The notes beneath the pieces are model-generated. The model ran no database searches. It was not told the DNA's origin and saw only the letters and a list, made by a program, of their open reading frames with translations. A program made the position numbers and the translations under genes. A DNA stretch of 64,000 bases from Shewanella sediminis HAW-EB3 (GTDB taxonomy: Bacteria; Pseudomonadota; Gammaproteobacteria; Enterobacterales; Shewanellaceae): positions 4,774,001-4,838,000 of the forward strand of contig NC_009831.1 of the NCBI RefSeq assembly GCF_000018025.1, in the 5' to 3' direction. Positions 42,395 to 50,494 of this stretch are shown here, piece after piece (the stretch's first letter is position 1; the number at the start of each line of letters is the position of its first letter).

Positions 42395-45052
42395 TTAGCG
42401 AATGCGACGACGCAAACCAAATAGTGAAAGCATAGCCAGACCTAAGAAACCTAAAGAACCACCATCATCATCTTCTTTTTCAGGTTCAACCGGTTCAACA
42501 GGGTCTACTGGTGCAGGATAATTCAGAGCAACAATCACAGGGTCGTGATCCGAAGAGCTATAGACATTCTCAGACTTAACCAAGTCGCCCGTGTACTTGC
42601 CCGAATATTCAAACAAGCCAGATTCAACTGAGTTGATATGCCAATCCTGAATATCGACCAGTCTTGCAGCGGCGCTCGCATTGCCGAGTGCGTGATCCAG
42701 GTTACCTAACTCACCGCCGTAACTATAACTATAGGTTTCCGCTCCATGAGCCTGAGTGTTTAGGTTGATTAGGCCATAACCTTTCTCAATCACACTTCCC
42801 TCTTGCTCATAGGTTTCACCATTGAGCGTTGTCCAAGATGCAGTTACTACGTCGCGTGTCGACGTCGCCGCATCATAATCGGTTAGTACGCGAACAGGAT
42901 CTTCCATGCCGTAGGCATTCAAATCACCGATAACCAACAGATCACCCTCGACATCCTTTAGTGAATCACCGATAGCCTTAGCGGCCGACACACGGAACTC
43001 ATTACACTTGCCTTGCAGATCGGCTGGGTCTTTGCTCTCAGAGAACTCCAACCAATCTTCCAGACAACCAGAGCCTTTAGACTTTAGATGGTTAACGACA
43101 ATAGTTAACTTCTCATCATGGATCTGGAACGTCTGAGCCAGGCTATGACGTTGATACTTGTTATAGCTTGGGCTGGTTTCAACATCATCACCCTCTCCGC
43201 GAGTCGCAACACCTTCCGCCGCATGCTGCTCGGGGGTAGCGATAACGAATGCGTCACCGGCTGGCTTCACCTTATTAGGACGGTAAAGGATACCGACCAT
43301 GATCGCGTCACTACCGACGAACTCACCCTGGTACTTATCGGCATCGGCGATTTCGATAAACTTATAGGCATCGATGGCTGGCAGCTCGGCATTAATCGAA
43401 TTCAGCAGATACTGAATTGAGCTTGACTCGCTAAAGCCATTATTTTCAATTTCCATCAAGCCTACGATGTCAGCATCCATCTCTTTGAGTGCATTAACAA
43501 TCTTAGTACGCTGAAGCAGATATTCATCCAAAGAGTGTGCACCACGACCACAACCTCTACTCGCATCAGCGTCGGCCTGATCTTCACAGGTCGCATTTAA
43601 CGGCCCACCGATATCGCTATCACTGGTGAACAAGTTCAACACGTTAAAGCTGGCGACACGAATATCACCTTTAGTCGCTATTTCAGGCGCGCCTGCTCGA
43701 TCATTTTCGCGGATGAAGTCACCGGCAACGATCTCATTGGTCGCATATAGACGATAGGCGTTATAGCTGTAGTTAACCATGCCTTCTATATTGTTCAGCT
43801 GATCGCCGATACGCATATATCCGGTTTCGGCATTGAAAGTAGGGAAATAAGCAATGTGACCATTAGGTGCAGATAGACCCGTTTCAATCACCAGCTTATT
43901 CTTAGCGTTCGCCGACGCTATTGCCGCAGCCTCTTCAGTACCTGCAGCGTGAACCTGAGTCGCCTTAAACAGAGGAGCCTTATGAGAGAGTGACATGGTA
44001 TTGCCATATCCATCATACCCATATGGGCTGGTGACCTTCATTTCACTGCCGGAGTCGAGTTTAATCTTCATCCCTTCGTGGCGCTCTAACGCATCGGCTA
44101 AGGTCTCACCGTCATTGATAACAAGCGCTACCACAGCAGGAAGCTCTGCATCTCCGGTAATAGCCAGATTATCAGGGTTACCTACGATTTCAGTCTGCTT
44201 ATAGTTCTCTTTAACTTTACCTTCTAAACAGACTAGCTTACCCGGTACGATTTCTGCCGGTGCTACAGCCCCCAGTGACACAAAGATACCATCGGAAGTT
44301 GCAGCCGAACCATCACCGACTACCTCTTGAATAAAGAAGCCTTTCTTCTTATCCAGACGAGCGGTCACCACACCTTTAACAATAACCGCATCGGCAGATT
44401 CATAGGGATATGAAGACGATGTCAGAGGACTGTACTGACCATCACCCTGAATATCATAGATCGCGGTGACATCGCCGATACAGGCATAAGGCTCAACGGG
44501 TTCAACTTCACCGCCAACAAACTCACCAGAGCGAACACCTAAACCACTGAAGGTATCCTTTGCAAGCTCAGTCCACTGCGCCGCATCAAACACGGTTTTA
44601 GCCGCAGTCACATCGTCGTTACGTTGAAATGTCTTATCGTATCCCCAGCCATCCGGCGTAGGAATGGTACCGATAACATCGACGATAACACCGTCTTTCA
44701 AGAGGGCAACCGCGTCACCACCATTGAAGTATAAGTTGCCAGTCATCGAGTCGACACCTGCGCCCAGAGTGATAGTGGCGCTTGGATGAGTGATGACTTT
44801 GACAGATTTGGAAGCGATCGCCTGACCATCTAAGGCAACCAGATCTAATGATGTTTCCGCACCATCTTTGAAGCGTACCAGCTTATAACCGGCCAGATCG
44901 ACGGATGCATCACCCGTGTTATACAGCTCGATAGCTTTATTATTGCTGCTGCCTTCTACATATTCACTAATCATGACATCTGCGCTCGCCATCATAGGCA
45001 GAGCCGCAGCGATTGACAGTGCCAGCACTGACAATTTTTTAACATTATCCAT
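42395..45052 (-). CDS. exeM: ExeM-type extracellular nuclease with GlyGly-CTERM (copy A)
   Basis: Exported nuclease (885 aa). Order of parts: signal peptide (KKLSVLALSIAAALPMMASA), lamin-tail domain (~25-125, ISEYVEGSSNNKAIELYNTG), OB-like region (~200-300), then an endonuclease/exonuclease/phosphatase domain (~465-840) with IRVASFNVLNLF, LMEIENNGF, VVNHLKSKG, VIGDLNAYG and SSDHDPVIV. The C-terminus is an acidic linker, DDDGGSLGFLGLAMLSLFGL and RRRIR: the GlyGly-CTERM signal cut by rhombosortase and linked with type II secretion. S. oneidensis ExeM uses such a protein to degrade extracellular DNA and shape biofilms. Tandem copy B lies directly upstream. Confidence 0.9.
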   Translation of the reverse strand: MDNVKKLSVLALSIAAALPMMASADVMISEYVEGSSNNKAIELYNTGDASVDLAGYKLVRFKDGAETSLDLVALDGQAIASKSVKVITHPSATITLGAGVDSMTGNLYFNGGDAVALLKDGVIVDVIGTIPTPDGWGYDKTFQRNDDVTAAKTVFDAAQWTELAKDTFSGLGVRSGEFVGGEVEPVEPYACIGDVTAIYDIQGDGQYSPLTSSSYPYESADAVIVKGVVTARLDKKKGFFIQEVVGDGSAATSDGIFVSLGAVAPAEIVPGKLVCLEGKVKENYKQTEIVGNPDNLAITGDAELPAVVALVINDGETLADALERHEGMKIKLDSGSEMKVTSPYGYDGYGNTMSLSHKAPLFKATQVHAAGTEEAAAIASANAKNKLVIETGLSAPNGHIAYFPTFNAETGYMRIGDQLNNIEGMVNYSYNAYRLYATNEIVAGDFIRENDRAGAPEIATKGDIRVASFNVLNLFTSDSDIGGPLNATCEDQADADASRGCGRGAHSLDEYLLQRTKIVNALKEMDADIVGLMEIENNGFSESSSIQYLLNSINAELPAIDAYKFIEIADADKYQGEFVGSDAIMVGILYRPNKVKPAGDAFVIATPEQHAAEGVATRGEGDDVETSPSYNKYQRHSLAQTFQIHDEKLTIVVNHLKSKGSGCLEDWLEFSESKDPADLQGKCNEFRVSAAKAIGDSLKDVEGDLLVIGDLNAYGMEDPVRVLTDYDAATSTRDVVTASWTTLNGETYEQEGSVIEKGYGLINLNTQAHGAETYSYSYGGELGNLDHALGNASAAARLVDIQDWHINSVESGLFEYSGKYTGDLVKSENVYSSSDHDPVIVALNYPAPVDPVEPVEPEKEDDDGGSLGFLGLAMLSLFGLRRRIR

Positions 45053-45418
45053 TTTTTCAACCCCATTTTTATAATATCGCCGCTAATTTCTATTAACGTG
45101 CGTAGGGATTGTTGCAGAGTTTTATGACAAAAAAAAGAAGGGTTAATCACATTTATCAAGCATAAGCACTTGTTAAACAAGGAAAAATCGATGCAAACTA
45201 ACCACCTGAGAGAACAGGGTGTGAACATGATGGCTTTAGGGTGTAAAAATCATATACTTAAGCAAGAACAGAGATACGAACTTTTTGTATATAATGATGC
45301 AGTCAAAGTTAGTATTTTTTTATAAAGCACTAAATATAATTTATGAATCTGCTACTACAGACTGAAAATAGTCAGTAAATCACGTTAAACAGCTTGAAAA
45401 ATGCTATTTTACAGAGAT
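45053..45418. repeat. Duplicated upstream region of nuclease copy A
   Basis: About 365 bases that align along the whole length with 48215-48585 (shared blocks include AGAGTTTTATGACAAAAAAAAG, ACTTAAGCAAGAACAG, ATAATGATGCA/ACAATGATGCA and AATCTGCTACTACAG). It should hold the promoter of copy A; no operator was identified. Confidence 0.8.
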
Positions 45419-45455
45419 AAAAAATCCCCAATCAAAACCTTCGAATGGGGATTTT
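45419..45455 (-). terminator. Terminator of ExeM-type nuclease copy B
   Basis: AAAATCCCCA / TGGGGATTTT 10-bp stem with a T-run on the minus strand, 80 bases after the stop of copy B. It marks the border between the two duplicated units. Confidence 0.82.
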
Positions 45456-45535: not shown

Positions 45536-48214
45536 CTATCGGCAGAAGGGGTGTGATGGCTTAATCTCACACCAGCTAGCACACGTCTCTCCGAGCCATG
45601 GATTTCTTCCTTTTCCTTTGCCAATTCCTTTTCCTTTGCCTTTTCCTGGCTTGTGACACCTTGGGTATGTCAGGGCTATGATCACAGGGTCGTGATCCGA
45701 AGAGCTAAAGACATTTTCAGACTTGGCCAAATCACCGGTATACTTACTCGAATACTCGAACAGATTCGACTCTAGTGAGTTGATATTCCAGTCTTCGATG
45801 GCCACCAGCTTATCGGCCACGACCTCATTGGCTAAGGCATGATCCAGGTTACCCAACTCGCCACTGTAGCTGTAACCGAAGGTCGCAGTACCATGGGAGA
45901 GGGTACTGAGGTTAATCAGACCATAACCCTTGTCTATCACACTGCCTGTTTGCTCGTAGACCTCACCATTCAGGCTAGTCCAGGACGCAGTAACCAGATC
46001 ACGATTCGACGTCGATGCATCATAGTCAGTCAGCACGGCAATAGGATCTTCCTGCCCATAGGCATTCATATCACCAATCACTAACAGGCCACCTTCAACA
46101 TCTTCAAGGGATTCACCCAGCACCTTGGCAGCCGATACACGGAACTCGTTACACTTGCCCTGAAGATCGGCCGGATCCTTATTCTCAGAGAACTCCATCC
46201 AGTCCTCCAGACAGCCAGAACCTTTAGACTTAAGGTGGTTAACCACTACCGTGAGTGGCTCGCCATGGATCATAAAGGTCTGGGCCAGACTATGACGCTG
46301 ATACTTATCATAACTTGGGCTGGTCTCGACTTTGGCTCCTTCGCCACGAGTCGCAACACCAGCTTCGGCGTGCTGCTCAGGTGTCGCGATAACCAAGGCA
46401 TCGACTGCAGGCTGCACCTTAGCCGGACGATACAAGATCCCCACAGTGATAGCATCGGTGCCGATAAATTCACCCTGATACTTGTCAGCAGGTGCTGGCT
46501 CGATAAAGGCGTAAGCATCCTCCTGCGGCAGTTCGGCATTGAGCGAATTTAGCAGGTATTGGATCGAGCTATGCTCACCAAAACCATTGTTTTCGATCTC
46601 CATCAGTCCAATCACATCGGCATTCATGGCTGTGATGGCATTGACTATCTTAGTGCGCTGCAGTTGATAATCTTCCAGCGAGTGTGCGCCCCGGCCACAG
46701 CCCTTACTGGCATTGGCATCGGCCTGATCTTTACACATAGGGTTTAGTGAACCGCCGATGTCGCTGTCACTGGTGAACAGGTTCAATACATTGAAGCTGG
46801 CGACCCGGATATCCCCCACATAGGCAACTTCTGGTGCATCGCTACGCTCATTGACCCGCACAAGATCACCGGCCACTATCTCATTGGTAACCACCAGACG
46901 TGGCTCGCCATAGCTGTAGCTCACCATCCCGGTCATATTGTTGACTCGATCGCCAATGCGAATATAACCGGTCTCGGCATTAAAAGTCGGGAAATATGGC
47001 ACTTCGCCATTTTTAGCCTTGTAGTCTGACTCGACATAGAGCTCATTGCTACGGTTAGCGCTTTGCAGCTCAATCGCCTCTATGGATAGCGGCGCAAAAA
47101 CTTGAGTCGGCTTCATCAGAGGTGATTTATGAGACAACACCATATTGTTACGACGGCTATCATAGTCATAACCGAAGCTACGAGTGACCTTCATATCGCT
47201 GCCGGCATCGAGCATAATTTGCATGCCCTCATAACGATTCATAGCCTGGGTTAAGCTCTCACCTTCGGCAACATAGAAGGGTGCAGGAGATGGCATCTGA
47301 CCAATCTCACCTATGTCCATCTTCTTGTCTTTCTTAATATCGACCTGAGTCAGGCCATAGTAGTCTTTGACCTTGCCTTGCACGCAGACCCGCACTCCGG
47401 GCTGAATAGCCTCGGGCGCCGCCTCTCCCAGGTAAACAAAAACGCCATCAGAGGTGTCAGGTGAACCATCACCGACGACTTCCTGCAAGTAGAAGCCCTT
47501 AAACAGACTCTCACCTCGGGCGGTAACCACACCACTGATGGTCACCTCGTCTGCCGACGCGTATTTTCCGTCTTCGATTAACGGACTCTTGCGCTCCGAT
47601 CCCTGAACATCATAGATGGGCGTGATTGCTTCGCCCACACAGCTAAAGGCAGGCTCGACGGGCGTACTGCCTCCACCGAAATCACCACTGCGTGCGCCTA
47701 GACCACTAAAGGTGTTCTTAGCTTTTTTCGTCCACTGGCTCTGAACATAGTCGGCACTGGCCGCAGTCACATCCGCTTTGCGCTCCATCGTGACATCTTT
47801 CGCCCAGTCACCCGTTGTGCCTACCTCGCCCAGAATATCAACCAAGGTGCCATCTTTGATGAGGCCGACCTTGTCATCACCATTGAAGTAAATGGTCGCT
47901 AACCGGGAGTCGATGGCCGAATCCAGGCTAATGGTATTTCTCGAATCCTTGTTACTGATCACCTTAACGGCATTGGCTGCCAGCGTGCTGTCGAGCGCTA
48001 TGATGGTCTTAGGCGTAGTCTCGCCCTTTGAGTAGTAGACCAGTGAGTAACCGGACAGATCGACGGTCGCCGATCCTGAATTATATATTTCAACGGCCTT
48101 GTTCCAGCCTGAACCCTCAACGTATTCGCTGATCAGTATGTCGGCATTGGCCACTGCCGGCATCGTCGCAGCCATCGCCAGCGCCAACACTGACAATCTT
48201 TTAACATTATCCAT
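45536..48214 (-). CDS. ExeM-type extracellular nuclease without GlyGly-CTERM (copy B)
   Basis: Paralogue of copy A (892 aa from ATG 48214; MDNVKRLSVLALAMAATMPAVANA signal peptide). It has the same lamin-tail, OB-like and endonuclease/exonuclease/phosphatase parts with all motifs (IRVASFNVLNLF, LMEIENNGF, VVNHLKSKG, VIGDMNAYG, SSDHDPVII). After ALTYP it diverges fully: the GlyGly-CTERM signal is replaced by a Gly-Lys run (KGKGKGIGKGKG) and a short Cys-containing end (ETCASWC ... HPFCR). The product should therefore not be anchored or processed like copy A, and may be released freely. The basic run could bind DNA or polysaccharide. Start chosen by comparison with copy A. Confidence 0.9.
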   Translation of the reverse strand: MDNVKRLSVLALAMAATMPAVANADILISEYVEGSGWNKAVEIYNSGSATVDLSGYSLVYYSKGETTPKTIIALDSTLAANAVKVISNKDSRNTISLDSAIDSRLATIYFNGDDKVGLIKDGTLVDILGEVGTTGDWAKDVTMERKADVTAASADYVQSQWTKKAKNTFSGLGARSGDFGGGSTPVEPAFSCVGEAITPIYDVQGSERKSPLIEDGKYASADEVTISGVVTARGESLFKGFYLQEVVGDGSPDTSDGVFVYLGEAAPEAIQPGVRVCVQGKVKDYYGLTQVDIKKDKKMDIGEIGQMPSPAPFYVAEGESLTQAMNRYEGMQIMLDAGSDMKVTRSFGYDYDSRRNNMVLSHKSPLMKPTQVFAPLSIEAIELQSANRSNELYVESDYKAKNGEVPYFPTFNAETGYIRIGDRVNNMTGMVSYSYGEPRLVVTNEIVAGDLVRVNERSDAPEVAYVGDIRVASFNVLNLFTSDSDIGGSLNPMCKDQADANASKGCGRGAHSLEDYQLQRTKIVNAITAMNADVIGLMEIENNGFGEHSSIQYLLNSLNAELPQEDAYAFIEPAPADKYQGEFIGTDAITVGILYRPAKVQPAVDALVIATPEQHAEAGVATRGEGAKVETSPSYDKYQRHSLAQTFMIHGEPLTVVVNHLKSKGSGCLEDWMEFSENKDPADLQGKCNEFRVSAAKVLGESLEDVEGGLLVIGDMNAYGQEDPIAVLTDYDASTSNRDLVTASWTSLNGEVYEQTGSVIDKGYGLINLSTLSHGTATFGYSYSGELGNLDHALANEVVADKLVAIEDWNINSLESNLFEYSSKYTGDLAKSENVFSSSDHDPVIIALTYPRCHKPGKGKGKGIGKGKGRNPWLGETCASWCEIKPSHPFCR

Positions 48215-48585
48215 TTTCTTTAACCCCATTTTTATAATATTACCGCTAACTTCTGTTAACGTGCGCAGCAATTGTTACAGAGTTTTATGACAAAAAAAAG
48301 AAGGGGGAATCACACTTTTCACTGCATAAGTATCTGTTAAACAAGAATAAAAACCCACGCATTAGCTCCTTATAAGAACAGGCAGAGAGTATATTAGCTT
48401 TATAAAGTGAAAATCATGCACTTAAGCAAGAACAGGGGGGGAAGTATTTTTGTATACAATGATGCATTGTCACACTCACTGCTTTTATAAAGCGCTAAAA
48501 ATAATTTATAAATCTGCTACTACAGGCTGAAAATAGTCTGTAAATCTCTTTAAACAGCTTCAAAAAGGCTTTTTACAAAGATAAA
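48215..48585. repeat. Duplicated upstream region of nuclease copy B
   Basis: Counterpart of 45053-45418; similarity covers the whole stretch and stops at the terminator of the next upstream gene, as in copy A. Confidence 0.8.
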
Positions 48586-48614
48586 AAGCGGCCGCCAATT
48601 GGCTTAGCCGGGAA
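48584..48614 (-). terminator. Terminator after the LuxR-type gene and its 3' remnants
   Basis: Minus strand CGGCTAAGCCAATTGGCGGCCG followed by CTTTTTATC; nested palindromic stems with a T-run. It lies after both decayed 3' copies, so these are probably still transcribed. Confidence 0.5.
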
Positions 48615-48630
48615 AGATTAAGACACCTTT

Positions 48631-48740
48631 CTAAGAACACAGCTCGAACTATCTTATAACCGTGAGTCTGGTAGGTTTGAGCCCATCGCTGTTTTTCAAT
48701 CCAGTCGACGCGAATGTTGATGATTGAGTCTTTCAAGAGG
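48631..48740 (-). pseudogene. Decayed 3' end of a LuxR-type gene (remnant 2)
   Basis: On the minus strand: AAGACTCAATCA ... CGATGGGCTCAAACCTACC ... TTCGAGCTGTGTTCTTAG, i.e. the coding 3' end of the gene at 48918 with an insertion and rearranged middle. Only remnants of RWAQTYQ and FELCS-stop can be read. Confidence 0.7.
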
Positions 48741-48775
48741 GGCTATACCATGAGCACCTTTCTAGAGCTTTCCAC

Positions 48776-48860
48776 CTAAGAGCAGAGCTCGAAGTGGCTC
48801 TGGTAGGTTTGAGCCCATCGAAGTAGTTCTACGCGAATGTGGATGATTGAGTCTTTCAAG
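48776..48860 (-). pseudogene. Decayed 3' end of a LuxR-type gene (remnant 1)
   Basis: Minus-strand copy of the last ~25 codons of the gene at 48918: KTQS, a short length change, then VELLRWAQTYQSHFELCS and stop. In the aligned VELL...FELCS part the differences from the intact gene are all in synonymous third or first (Leu) positions, so the copy diverged while it was still coding. Confidence 0.8.
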
Positions 48861-48917
48861 AGACGGATTCCATAAGCACCGTGCTAAAAGCTCCACCTCT
48901 TTTCTACGAACACGTTT

Positions 48918-49583
48918 CTATGAACAAAGTTCAAAATGACTCTGGTAGGTTTGAGCCCAGCGGAGTAATTCTACACGGTTGCGTGATTGAGTCTTTCTGA
49001 AGATAGATGAGATGTGTGCCTTCACCGTGTGCTCACTGATGCAAAGGTTATGGGCGATCTCTTTATTTCTGGCTCCACTGGAGACTAATTGAATGATGGT
49101 ACGCTCCCGTTTCGTGAGCATCTCCAGCATAGCCACCGTCTCTTGAGAATAATCATTGGCACTGTCTAATCGCTTCACAAGATGACGAAACATCTTGCTG
49201 ATCAAGGTTCTGTCATACCATAACTCGTCGGCGACCATCTTTCTCAGACCGGTTAAGAGCAGATCCATACGCTGATCGGCATAGAGGAGCCCACGGATCC
49301 CCAATAACAGCGCCGTTTCAGGCTCCAGCTTATCGCGATCGACTTGATATAGAGCGACGGGGACATGAGGCACCAGACGAGAGGCCAGTAAAGGGATCCC
49401 TTTACTGTCGAGTGCTGCACCTTCTTGTGAAATTAGGTAGAAACTATCACCGTCCCTTTCAGGCTCTAAATCAGACACCTGCTTTACGATACGGGTCTTT
49501 AATCCGATAGATTCAGCCAAGATGGCCAGATGGCATGGGGCTGCAACTTGGTGCAAAAACACTAACCCGTCAATTTTACTCAT
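48918..49583 (-). CDS. LuxR/CsgD-type transcriptional regulator
   Basis: DNA-binding regulator (221 aa). The C-terminal HTH is of LuxR type (LTKRERTIIQLVSSGARNKEIAHNLCISEHTVKAHISSIFRKTQSRNRVELLRWAQ, ~150-210). The N-terminal ~120 residues look like a degenerate receiver domain without the phospho-acceptor Asp, as in CsgD and VpsT, which control biofilm matrix genes. GGAGAG precedes the ATG. Its 3' end is repeated twice downstream in decayed form (48776-48860, 48631-48740). It sits just upstream of the ExeM pair, both linked to biofilm biology in related species; a regulatory tie is inference. Confidence 0.85.
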   Translation of the reverse strand: MSKIDGLVFLHQVAAPCHLAILAESIGLKTRIVKQVSDLEPERDGDSFYLISQEGAALDSKGIPLLASRLVPHVPVALYQVDRDKLEPETALLLGIRGLLYADQRMDLLLTGLRKMVADELWYDRTLISKMFRHLVKRLDSANDYSQETVAMLEMLTKRERTIIQLVSSGARNKEIAHNLCISEHTVKAHISSIFRKTQSRNRVELLRWAQTYQSHFELCS

Positions 49584-49750: not shown

Positions 49751-49870
49751 TTAAATCAGCTTATCGATCTGTCGATTATGAAGTCGTGACAATAAAAACA
49801 CACTCATAACCGCACCCAACAGCGCCATCCCCATATCTGAAGTTCGAATATTCCAGATATAACCACTTCT
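49751..49870 (-). pseudogene. Detached 3' end of a YjdF-like gene
   Basis: Minus strand reads GYIWNIRTSDMGMALLGAV then MSVFLLSRLHNRQIDKLI and a stop, in one open frame. It parallels the C-terminus of the intact gene at 49883 (GYIWDTQSDMGMALLGAV, MSVLLLSRLHDKQI) with a 144-base offset. It has no start or 5' part. Confidence 0.8.
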
Positions 49871-49882
49871 CTCGCAATGGTC

Positions 49883-50494
49883 CTATGGAGTACCTAGTTT
49901 AAGTTGGCAGATCTGTTTATCGTGAAGCCGTGATAATAGAAGCACACTCATAACCGCACCCAACAGCGCCATCCCCATATCAGATTGAGTGTCCCAGATA
50001 TAACCTTGAGTGCCGAGAAATGCTTCGGCATCTTCACCGGTTAACAGTGCGACCCACCACTCAATCAGTTCATAGAAAGCCGAGAATGCGAGGGCGAAAC
50101 AGACAGCCAAAAAATTGCACCAGTGACCCGGCTTCACCACCTCCCTTCTGATAAATATCTCTCTGGCTAATATAACAGGGACAAAACCTTGAGCTAAATG
50201 GCCCAGCTTGTCGTAATTATTTCTATCTCCATCAACAAGTTGTGATATCCAATCAAAAAGTGGAACCTCAGCATAGGTATAATGACCGCCTACCATCAGG
50301 ATGACACAATGGATCAATATAAGCAGGTAAGCCAAAGGGCTCATCGGGAAGCGATTGCGGCTAAAAAATAGCACAGGTAGAGCGATTAATGCCGGCAAGA
50401 CCTCAAGAAACCAGGTGAACTGATCCTTCGGCCCTATAGCCGACCAGATCAGTACAGAGAAAAAAACGATTAGCCAGATGACGCGTTTATTCAA
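49883..50494 (-). CDS. YjdF-like membrane protein (DUF2238)
   Basis: Inner-membrane protein (203 aa, about six spans) of the DUF2238/YjdF family; function unknown. Recognisable parts are the region NNYDKLGHLAQGFVPVILAREIFIRR, then FSAFYELIEWWVALLTGEDAEAFLGTQGYIWDTQSDMGMALLGAV, with conserved acidic and His residues at membrane borders. A second, detached C-terminus of the same type follows at 49751-49870. It is divergent from serA. Confidence 0.85.
   Translation of the reverse strand: MNKRVIWLIVFFSVLIWSAIGPKDQFTWFLEVLPALIALPVLFFSRNRFPMSPLAYLLILIHCVILMVGGHYTYAEVPLFDWISQLVDGDRNNYDKLGHLAQGFVPVILAREIFIRREVVKPGHWCNFLAVCFALAFSAFYELIEWWVALLTGEDAEAFLGTQGYIWDTQSDMGMALLGAVMSVLLLSRLHDKQICQLKLGTP

Follow-up and report, generated by a model that had tools for sequence, protein, structure and literature searches.

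The luxR gene of Shewanella sediminis HAW-EB3 is followed by two partial copies of its own 3′ end, and the alignments presented here indicate that such tails, in this and five other Shewanella species, are the products of one old founder that expanded as a tandem array and intermixed with the 3′ end of luxR itself. The explanation that we consider probable, with reasonable rather than strong confidence, is that a 3′ partial duplication was followed by unequal exchange and gene conversion, partly between species, and that the resulting array is without function.

RESULTS

The luxR 3′ end recurs twice behind the gene

The window, meaning the whole 64,000-nucleotide stretch of S. sediminis DNA that was analyzed, contains the features listed in Table 1. 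A repeat scan of the window found copies of one repeat family at 48662, 48794, and 48936, with spacings of 132 and 142 bases, and a profile search placed tail 1 at +61..+142 and tail 2 at +184..+287 relative to the luxR stop codon. When the last 90 bases of luxR were compared by BLAST with the 1500 bases downstream, both tails were recovered (tail 1, E 9e-18; tail 2, E 2e-7). Their scores were 74.3 and 39.2 bits, respectively, against 27.4 bits for the best of 1000 dinucleotide shuffles of the downstream DNA. A previous interpretation of this DNA, made without database searches (the sequence-only reading), had described two recurrences of the luxR end at intervals of 142 and 132 bases, and repeat scan, BLAST, and shuffles agree with it.

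Table 1. Coordinates in the window of luxR, the upstream DUF2238 gene, and the elements behind them
Feature	Position	Strand	Remarks
luxR gene, 221 aa	48918..49583	-	GerE HTH domain; last ~80 bases form array unit 1
Linker, luxR stop to tail 1	48858..48917	-	59/60 bases identical to the S. atlantica t4-t5 linker
Tail 1	48776..48857	-	+2 founder junction; centre like that of the gene; stop retained
Linker, tail 1 to tail 2	48735..48775	-	
Tail 2	48631..48734	-	Long form (+9 centre, also present in the five other array-bearing species); 13-base insertion; stop retained
AT-rich hairpin followed by a T run, likely luxR terminator	48568..48589	-	Fold z-score only -0.72; missed by a G+C-based terminator scan
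DUF2238 membrane protein gene, upstream neighbour of luxR	49883..50494	-	Has its own 3′ tail
DUF2238 3′ tail	49766..49864	-	84% over 99 bases; +3 near the 5′ junction

On these matches the tails are luxR 3′ ends. They correspond to about the last 27 codons, and luxR upstream of its last ~80-90 bases is unrepeated; both terminate in FELCS and a stop codon, bearing out the statement that each remnant keeps its stop and lacks a 5′ part. Tail 1 has a +2 frameshift immediately before VELL and so is no open continuation of luxR, and tail 2 has the same +2 together with insertions of 9 and 13 bases. The best NCBIfam model for the luxR product is CsgD, at 73.6 bits, far under the model cut-off of 250.

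A search of the whole S. sediminis genome (a single contig of 5,517,674 bases) with the array gave 14 matches: the luxR locus itself and 13 others of only 15-34 bases at E values of at least 0.17. The array is thus confined to a single locus, and a stand-alone, genome-wide intergenic repeat family unlinked to luxR, which the sequence-only reading had named as the finding that would speak against it, is ruled out. An assembly artefact is unlikely because the array is present in six genomes, including the single-contig genome of S. sediminis.

On the far side of the array, the window also contains two tandem ExeM extracellular nuclease genes (42395-45052 and 45536-48214), with leaders of ~370 bases near 45056-45424 and 48219-48590. 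These leaders resemble that of Shewanella genome G018 and matched no Rfam family at the cut-off.

The tails share one founder junction across six species

We examined the distribution of the array among relatives, whose homologous loci came from Shewanella in 47 of 48 cases. The nearest relatives at luxR are S. canadensis, S. atlantica, and Shewanella sp. N1E18. With an S. canadensis tail as the query, 36 of 129 genus genomes matched at E 0.001, and the tail-specific part of the query was present in six of the 129, in each case with the array behind luxR: S. sediminis, S. canadensis, S. atlantica, and three distant species represented by genomes G018, G009, and G012. Of the 30 other matching genomes, N1E18 (G145) matches through its own luxR end, as judged by coordinates, and the remainder align only from query base 57 on, as a luxR gene end would. 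A tail profile run with nhmmer over 79 luxR loci gave strong matches in the same six species only; a weak match at one further locus (L077, E 0.75) was discarded.

Tail number varies among these species, with two in S. sediminis, two in S. canadensis, six in S. atlantica, one plus a partial tail in G018, and one each in G009 and G012 (at least one tail in each of the three distant species). N1E18 has none, so that the close relatives carry 2, 2, 6, and 0. The junction just before VELL is two bases longer in 13 of 13 tails and also in the partial G018 tail, whereas all 66 distinct luxR genes (among 78 loci counted) carry the gene-type junction and none the tail-type. A +9 centre is found in most tails, the gene-type centre occurring in tail 1 of S. 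sediminis, tail 1 of S. canadensis, and tails 1 and 2 of S. atlantica; a 13-base insertion is common to three tails.

In S. atlantica, the six tails lie head to tail with shared linkers: five of six linkers measure 13 bases and have nearly the same sequence, the linkers behind tails 2 and 3 are identical, and tails 3 and 4 match for 48 bases from their start. One of its linkers is also nearly the same as the first linker of S. sediminis (Table 1). One junction in 13 tails, together with these common linkers, argues for a single founder followed by tandem expansion. Recent slippage of the present luxR is ruled out because the founder tail is common to six species, in agreement with the earlier view that this is not simple slippage of the present gene.

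At four loci (L029, L030, L034, and L035), the luxR product ends in NACHF rather than YQSHF. Two of these (L029, which is G009, and L034, which is G012) have a tail of the usual type directly behind the gene.

Gene end and tails appear to have exchanged sequence

From VELL to the stop codon, tail 1 differs from the adjoining luxR at 10 of 57 bases, and all 10 differences are synonymous, as the sequence-only reading had observed. It had taken this as proof that the copy was once under coding selection, for which synonymous changes alone are insufficient, the gene side having changed as well. Each of the ten sites shows more than one state among the seven other genes compared. When the sites were polarized by N1E18 and S. 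canadensis, the gene departed at four, the tail at two, and four were ambiguous. In simulations without selection, two changes were both synonymous in 5% of runs and four in 0.2%. Coding selection on tail 1 as the sole reading of the ten synonymous differences is weakened by this ten-site comparison.

The tails had also been proposed to be the 3′ ends of old alleles or paralogues left behind as successive new ones recombined in from the 5′ side, with comparison against relatives suggested as the check. Tail 1 is 7/57 from luxR of both S. canadensis and N1E18, 9/57 from that of S. atlantica, and 10/57 from its own, a small margin; S. sediminis luxR is nearest to that of S. atlantica (1/57). Tail 1 is thus nearer to the genes of two sisters than to its own, so it keeps another version of the gene end, and to this extent the idea of old ends left behind stands. 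The entry of whole alleles does not: the body of luxR lies at ordinary distances from its relatives (32/606 from S. canadensis and 41/606 from S. atlantica), and the founder junction is common to the tails. By these comparisons, the exchanged piece is the luxR end and not a whole allele.

The final 42 bases of luxR show homogenization with the tails in two species. In S. canadensis, gene and tail 2 differ by a single base, whereas the gene differs by nine from S. sediminis luxR and by eight from S. atlantica luxR; in S. atlantica, a single base separates the gene from tail 1 and two separate it from tail 3. No homogenization is seen between gene and tail 1 in S. sediminis (7/42), which counts against our explanation, or in G018 (8/42).

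The relationships of the gene itself switch near its end. Against S. canadensis, S. sediminis luxR differs at 12 of the final 60 bases (P = 2e-4 relative to the body), and 11 of the last 20 codons are changed, 11 of 11 synonymously; against S. atlantica it differs at 1 of the final 60. Sites uniting S. sediminis with S. atlantica and with S. canadensis stand at 12:0 from base 586 and 15:25 before it (P = 1e-4), the boundaries for both P values having been picked after viewing the data. This switch inside luxR indicates that lineages have exchanged the end of the gene. As a donor of the end common to S. sediminis and S. atlantica, S. benthica DSM 8812 is suggestive only: its luxR differs from theirs at 8 and 7 of 57 bases there, against 142/609 from both in the body.

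A comparable pattern extends beyond the gene in the distant species. Over the 1.7 kb that begins at the tail, G018 and S. canadensis show 83% likeness, against 69% in luxR and 72% in DUF2238; for G018 and G009 the figure is 82%, starting 178 bases ahead of the luxR stop. Interspecies recombination whose breakpoints fall close to the luxR end is the simplest reading; stronger constraint on the DNA downstream of luxR could also produce such a pattern. For a neutral tail inherited vertically, with neither transfer nor constraint, the likeness of G018 and S. canadensis in tail and downstream DNA is unexpected.

Other Shewanella genes carry 3′ tails

We surveyed 864 kb of the S. sediminis genome, including the window, and accepted five of 673 ORFs as having a 3′ tail: luxR, DUF2238, pxpC, a TonB-dependent copper receptor gene, and a gene for an unnamed 167-aa protein. 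The survey script itself returned six 3′ and two 5′ cases. Two 3′ cases, both in L125 and one of them lying by eye on a repeat before a putative transposase gene, were dropped by judgement, and DUF2238 was entered manually, since its match ends 27 bases short of the stop codon. One 5′ case overlaps the pxpC tail, and the other is a perfect 356-base tandem duplication (L148:11465-12176), which spans the end of one ORF and the start of the next. Automatic, largely uninspected counts for four other genomes gave 3′ cases in 2 of 331 ORFs (G010), 1 of 328 (G034), 0 of 333 (G043), and 1 of 372 (G048), and 5′ cases numbering 0, 0, 0, and 1. More 3′ than 5′ cases would be expected if a duplication that runs across a stop codon does no harm.

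Flanking sequences of these tails bear on an alternative mechanism that we regard as unlikely, a sharper version of what the sequence-only reading had proposed. Incoming homologous DNA would enter by legitimate recombination upstream and illegitimate recombination on the 3′ side, placing a new end with its own flank before the old end, and a tail would then be the old end in its native flank. In the sisters (S. canadensis, S. atlantica, and N1E18), pxpC itself is followed by the flank GATTAAGAAG; in S. sediminis this flank stands behind the tail (L137:12362-12437) and unrelated sequence follows the gene. Plain tandem duplication does not predict this arrangement, which the luxR flanks do not show clearly. 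DUF2238 has one tail in S. sediminis, two in S. canadensis, one in S. atlantica, and none in N1E18, and in S. atlantica it is the tail, not the gene, that ends like the N1E18 gene. A serA tail is found once each in UCD-KL12, DT_112, and S. benthica KT99 (L042, L043, and L045, minus strand of the locus) and is absent from S. benthica DSM 8812 and S. sediminis. In UCD-KL12, the terminator behind this tail is of the type behind S. sediminis serA, and the gene precedes another type, seen by eye only at L042, L043, L045, and L046 among 44 serA loci. The patterns in pxpC, S. atlantica DUF2238, and UCD-KL12 serA favor displacement of this kind, the small-margin affinity of luxR tail 1 to two sisters' genes is in line with it, and the mechanism itself has been proposed for T6SS and Rhs loci (PMC5361080).

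Several observations weigh against displaced ends. The body of luxR lies at ordinary distances, with no sign of replacement by a foreign one, one founder junction is common to all luxR tails, and no donor genome was found. The pxpC tail and the resident pxpC share several states that the sisters lack; between tail and gene, 7 codons differ, all synonymously outside three indel positions, with some changes relative to the sisters on the gene side. The linker behind the copper receptor gene starts like the flank behind its tail, a pattern that favors plain duplication. The serA tails of S. benthica KT99 and DT_112 begin in the same odd way, and their remainder is that of each one's own gene (100% and 97.5%, respectively, over 120 bases), which parallels the exchange that we propose for luxR. 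Duplication and displacement may both be at work. Amino-acid-changing codons, with the divergent 5′ zone included, number 5 of 10 in the DUF2238 tail, 6 of 8 in that of the copper receptor, and 4 of 9 in that of the 167-aa protein. Between pxpC and the next gene, S. atlantica and N1E18 (L239 and L240) have runs of a 7-base repeat, CTCGTAG.

Function, a lost paralogue, and integration are improbable

The likely terminator behind the tails (Table 1) would place them in the luxR 3′ UTR, and a functional element there, acting as RNA decoy, stability element, or silent donor cassette, is an alternative to which we give little credence. Besides this position ahead of the terminator, it has in its favor that long-form tails are 71-89% alike and whole luxR genes 68-73% across 12 pairs with at least one distant species, drawn from the six array-bearing genomes. 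The last 81 bases of luxR itself are, however, equally conserved (69-84% in the same pairs), as is the downstream DNA; gene ends being as conserved as tails, special conservation of the tails is not demonstrated. The tail went undetected in 123 of 129 genus genomes, and the three close species with the array share one LuxR protein end. Structured RNA finds no support: the folds of four tails were no better than those of shuffles (z -1.1 to +1.1), and Rfam gave no family at or above the cut-off, its sole line being a sub-threshold microRNA match outside the array. The tails are probably neutral.

It is very unlikely that a complete luxR paralogue once stood in tandem and was deleted except for its terminal part, the founder tail. 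The founder tail can be read in frame for ~30 codons, with a centre by eye of RVDWIEKQRW versus RVELLRW, but among the matches listed there is no adjacent full second luxR, and close second copies there lie on the same contig ~49-91 kb away. Scarcely credible is an integrative-element attachment site at the luxR 3′ end, with tails as displaced att copies whose cargo was lost: mobile elements do usually scar a gene by 3′-end duplication on integration, but the array matched none of 50,697 phage or 72,556 plasmid records, an exact 19-base long-form piece is absent from viral contigs, and the neighboring proteins whose families were looked up (a subset of ORFs) include no recombinase.

DISCUSSION

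We propose that the array began as a short, old partial duplication across the luxR stop codon. The founder tail, comprising the last ~80-90 bases of the gene and a linker, would have arisen before the six species split or have spread among them, and would have gained small indels because no selection acted on it. Since tails and gene ends have stayed alike, unequal exchange and gene conversion would have continued between them, with DNA from related species carrying the exchange between genomes. Such exchange would multiply or remove tails, yield mosaic units, and sometimes overwrite the end of the working gene; overwrites would survive only with the protein unchanged, so that gene-tail differences in the exchanged tract would be synonymous. 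Of this account, the common founder junction, the mosaic units, the varying tail number, the homogenization of gene and tail in S. canadensis and S. atlantica, and the switch of relationship at the luxR end were observed; how and in which direction each exchange went, and that the array lacks function, are inferred.

The array, for which our literature search found no report, may be read as a fossil of recombination at gene ends, in DNA that is probably neutral. On this evidence, non-coding copies left behind can trade sequence with the end of a working gene; if this holds, synonymous sites at gene ends would mislead trees and tests of selection. Displaced ends, if common, would provide a direct record of a gene's former ends and make homology-facilitated recombination measurable at ordinary housekeeping genes. 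A broader proposition, which we put forward only tentatively and think doubtful, is that gene 3′ ends in this Shewanella clade are preferred landing points for recombination between species, with earlier ends left in the 3′ UTR of a little less than 1% of genes (5 of the 673 ORFs surveyed) and able to write back into the live gene.

Among known systems, minisatellite-like tandem repeats evolve by unequal exchange. The luxR array resembles them in its tandem units, a copy number of 0-6 among close relatives, its mosaics, and homogenization in two species; it is unlike them in that unit 1 is coding sequence, the end of a working gene, with the array extending across its stop codon. Silent-cassette gene conversion is known from pilE/pilS and vlsE, which likewise have 5′-truncated copies beside one expressed gene and exchange of sequence. 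In luxR, however, the protein is undiversified in close relatives and the exchanged differences are synonymous (all 11 codons between S. sediminis and S. canadensis).

The account of pneumococcal transformation in PMC3784515 describes tandem duplications of 100-900 kb arising by unequal crossing-over. For T6SS and Rhs loci, orphan 3′ ends and immunity-gene arrays are attributed to sequential displacement by homology-facilitated illegitimate recombination (PMC5361080). The likeness to luxR lies in old 3′ parts that persist behind a gene after exchange of its end, in their possible pile-up, and in transfer between strains. There, whole novel effector-immunity modules enter and the ends differ; in the luxR array, the ends encode almost the same protein sequence, the units measure ~95-150 bases, and a single founder appears to underlie them all.
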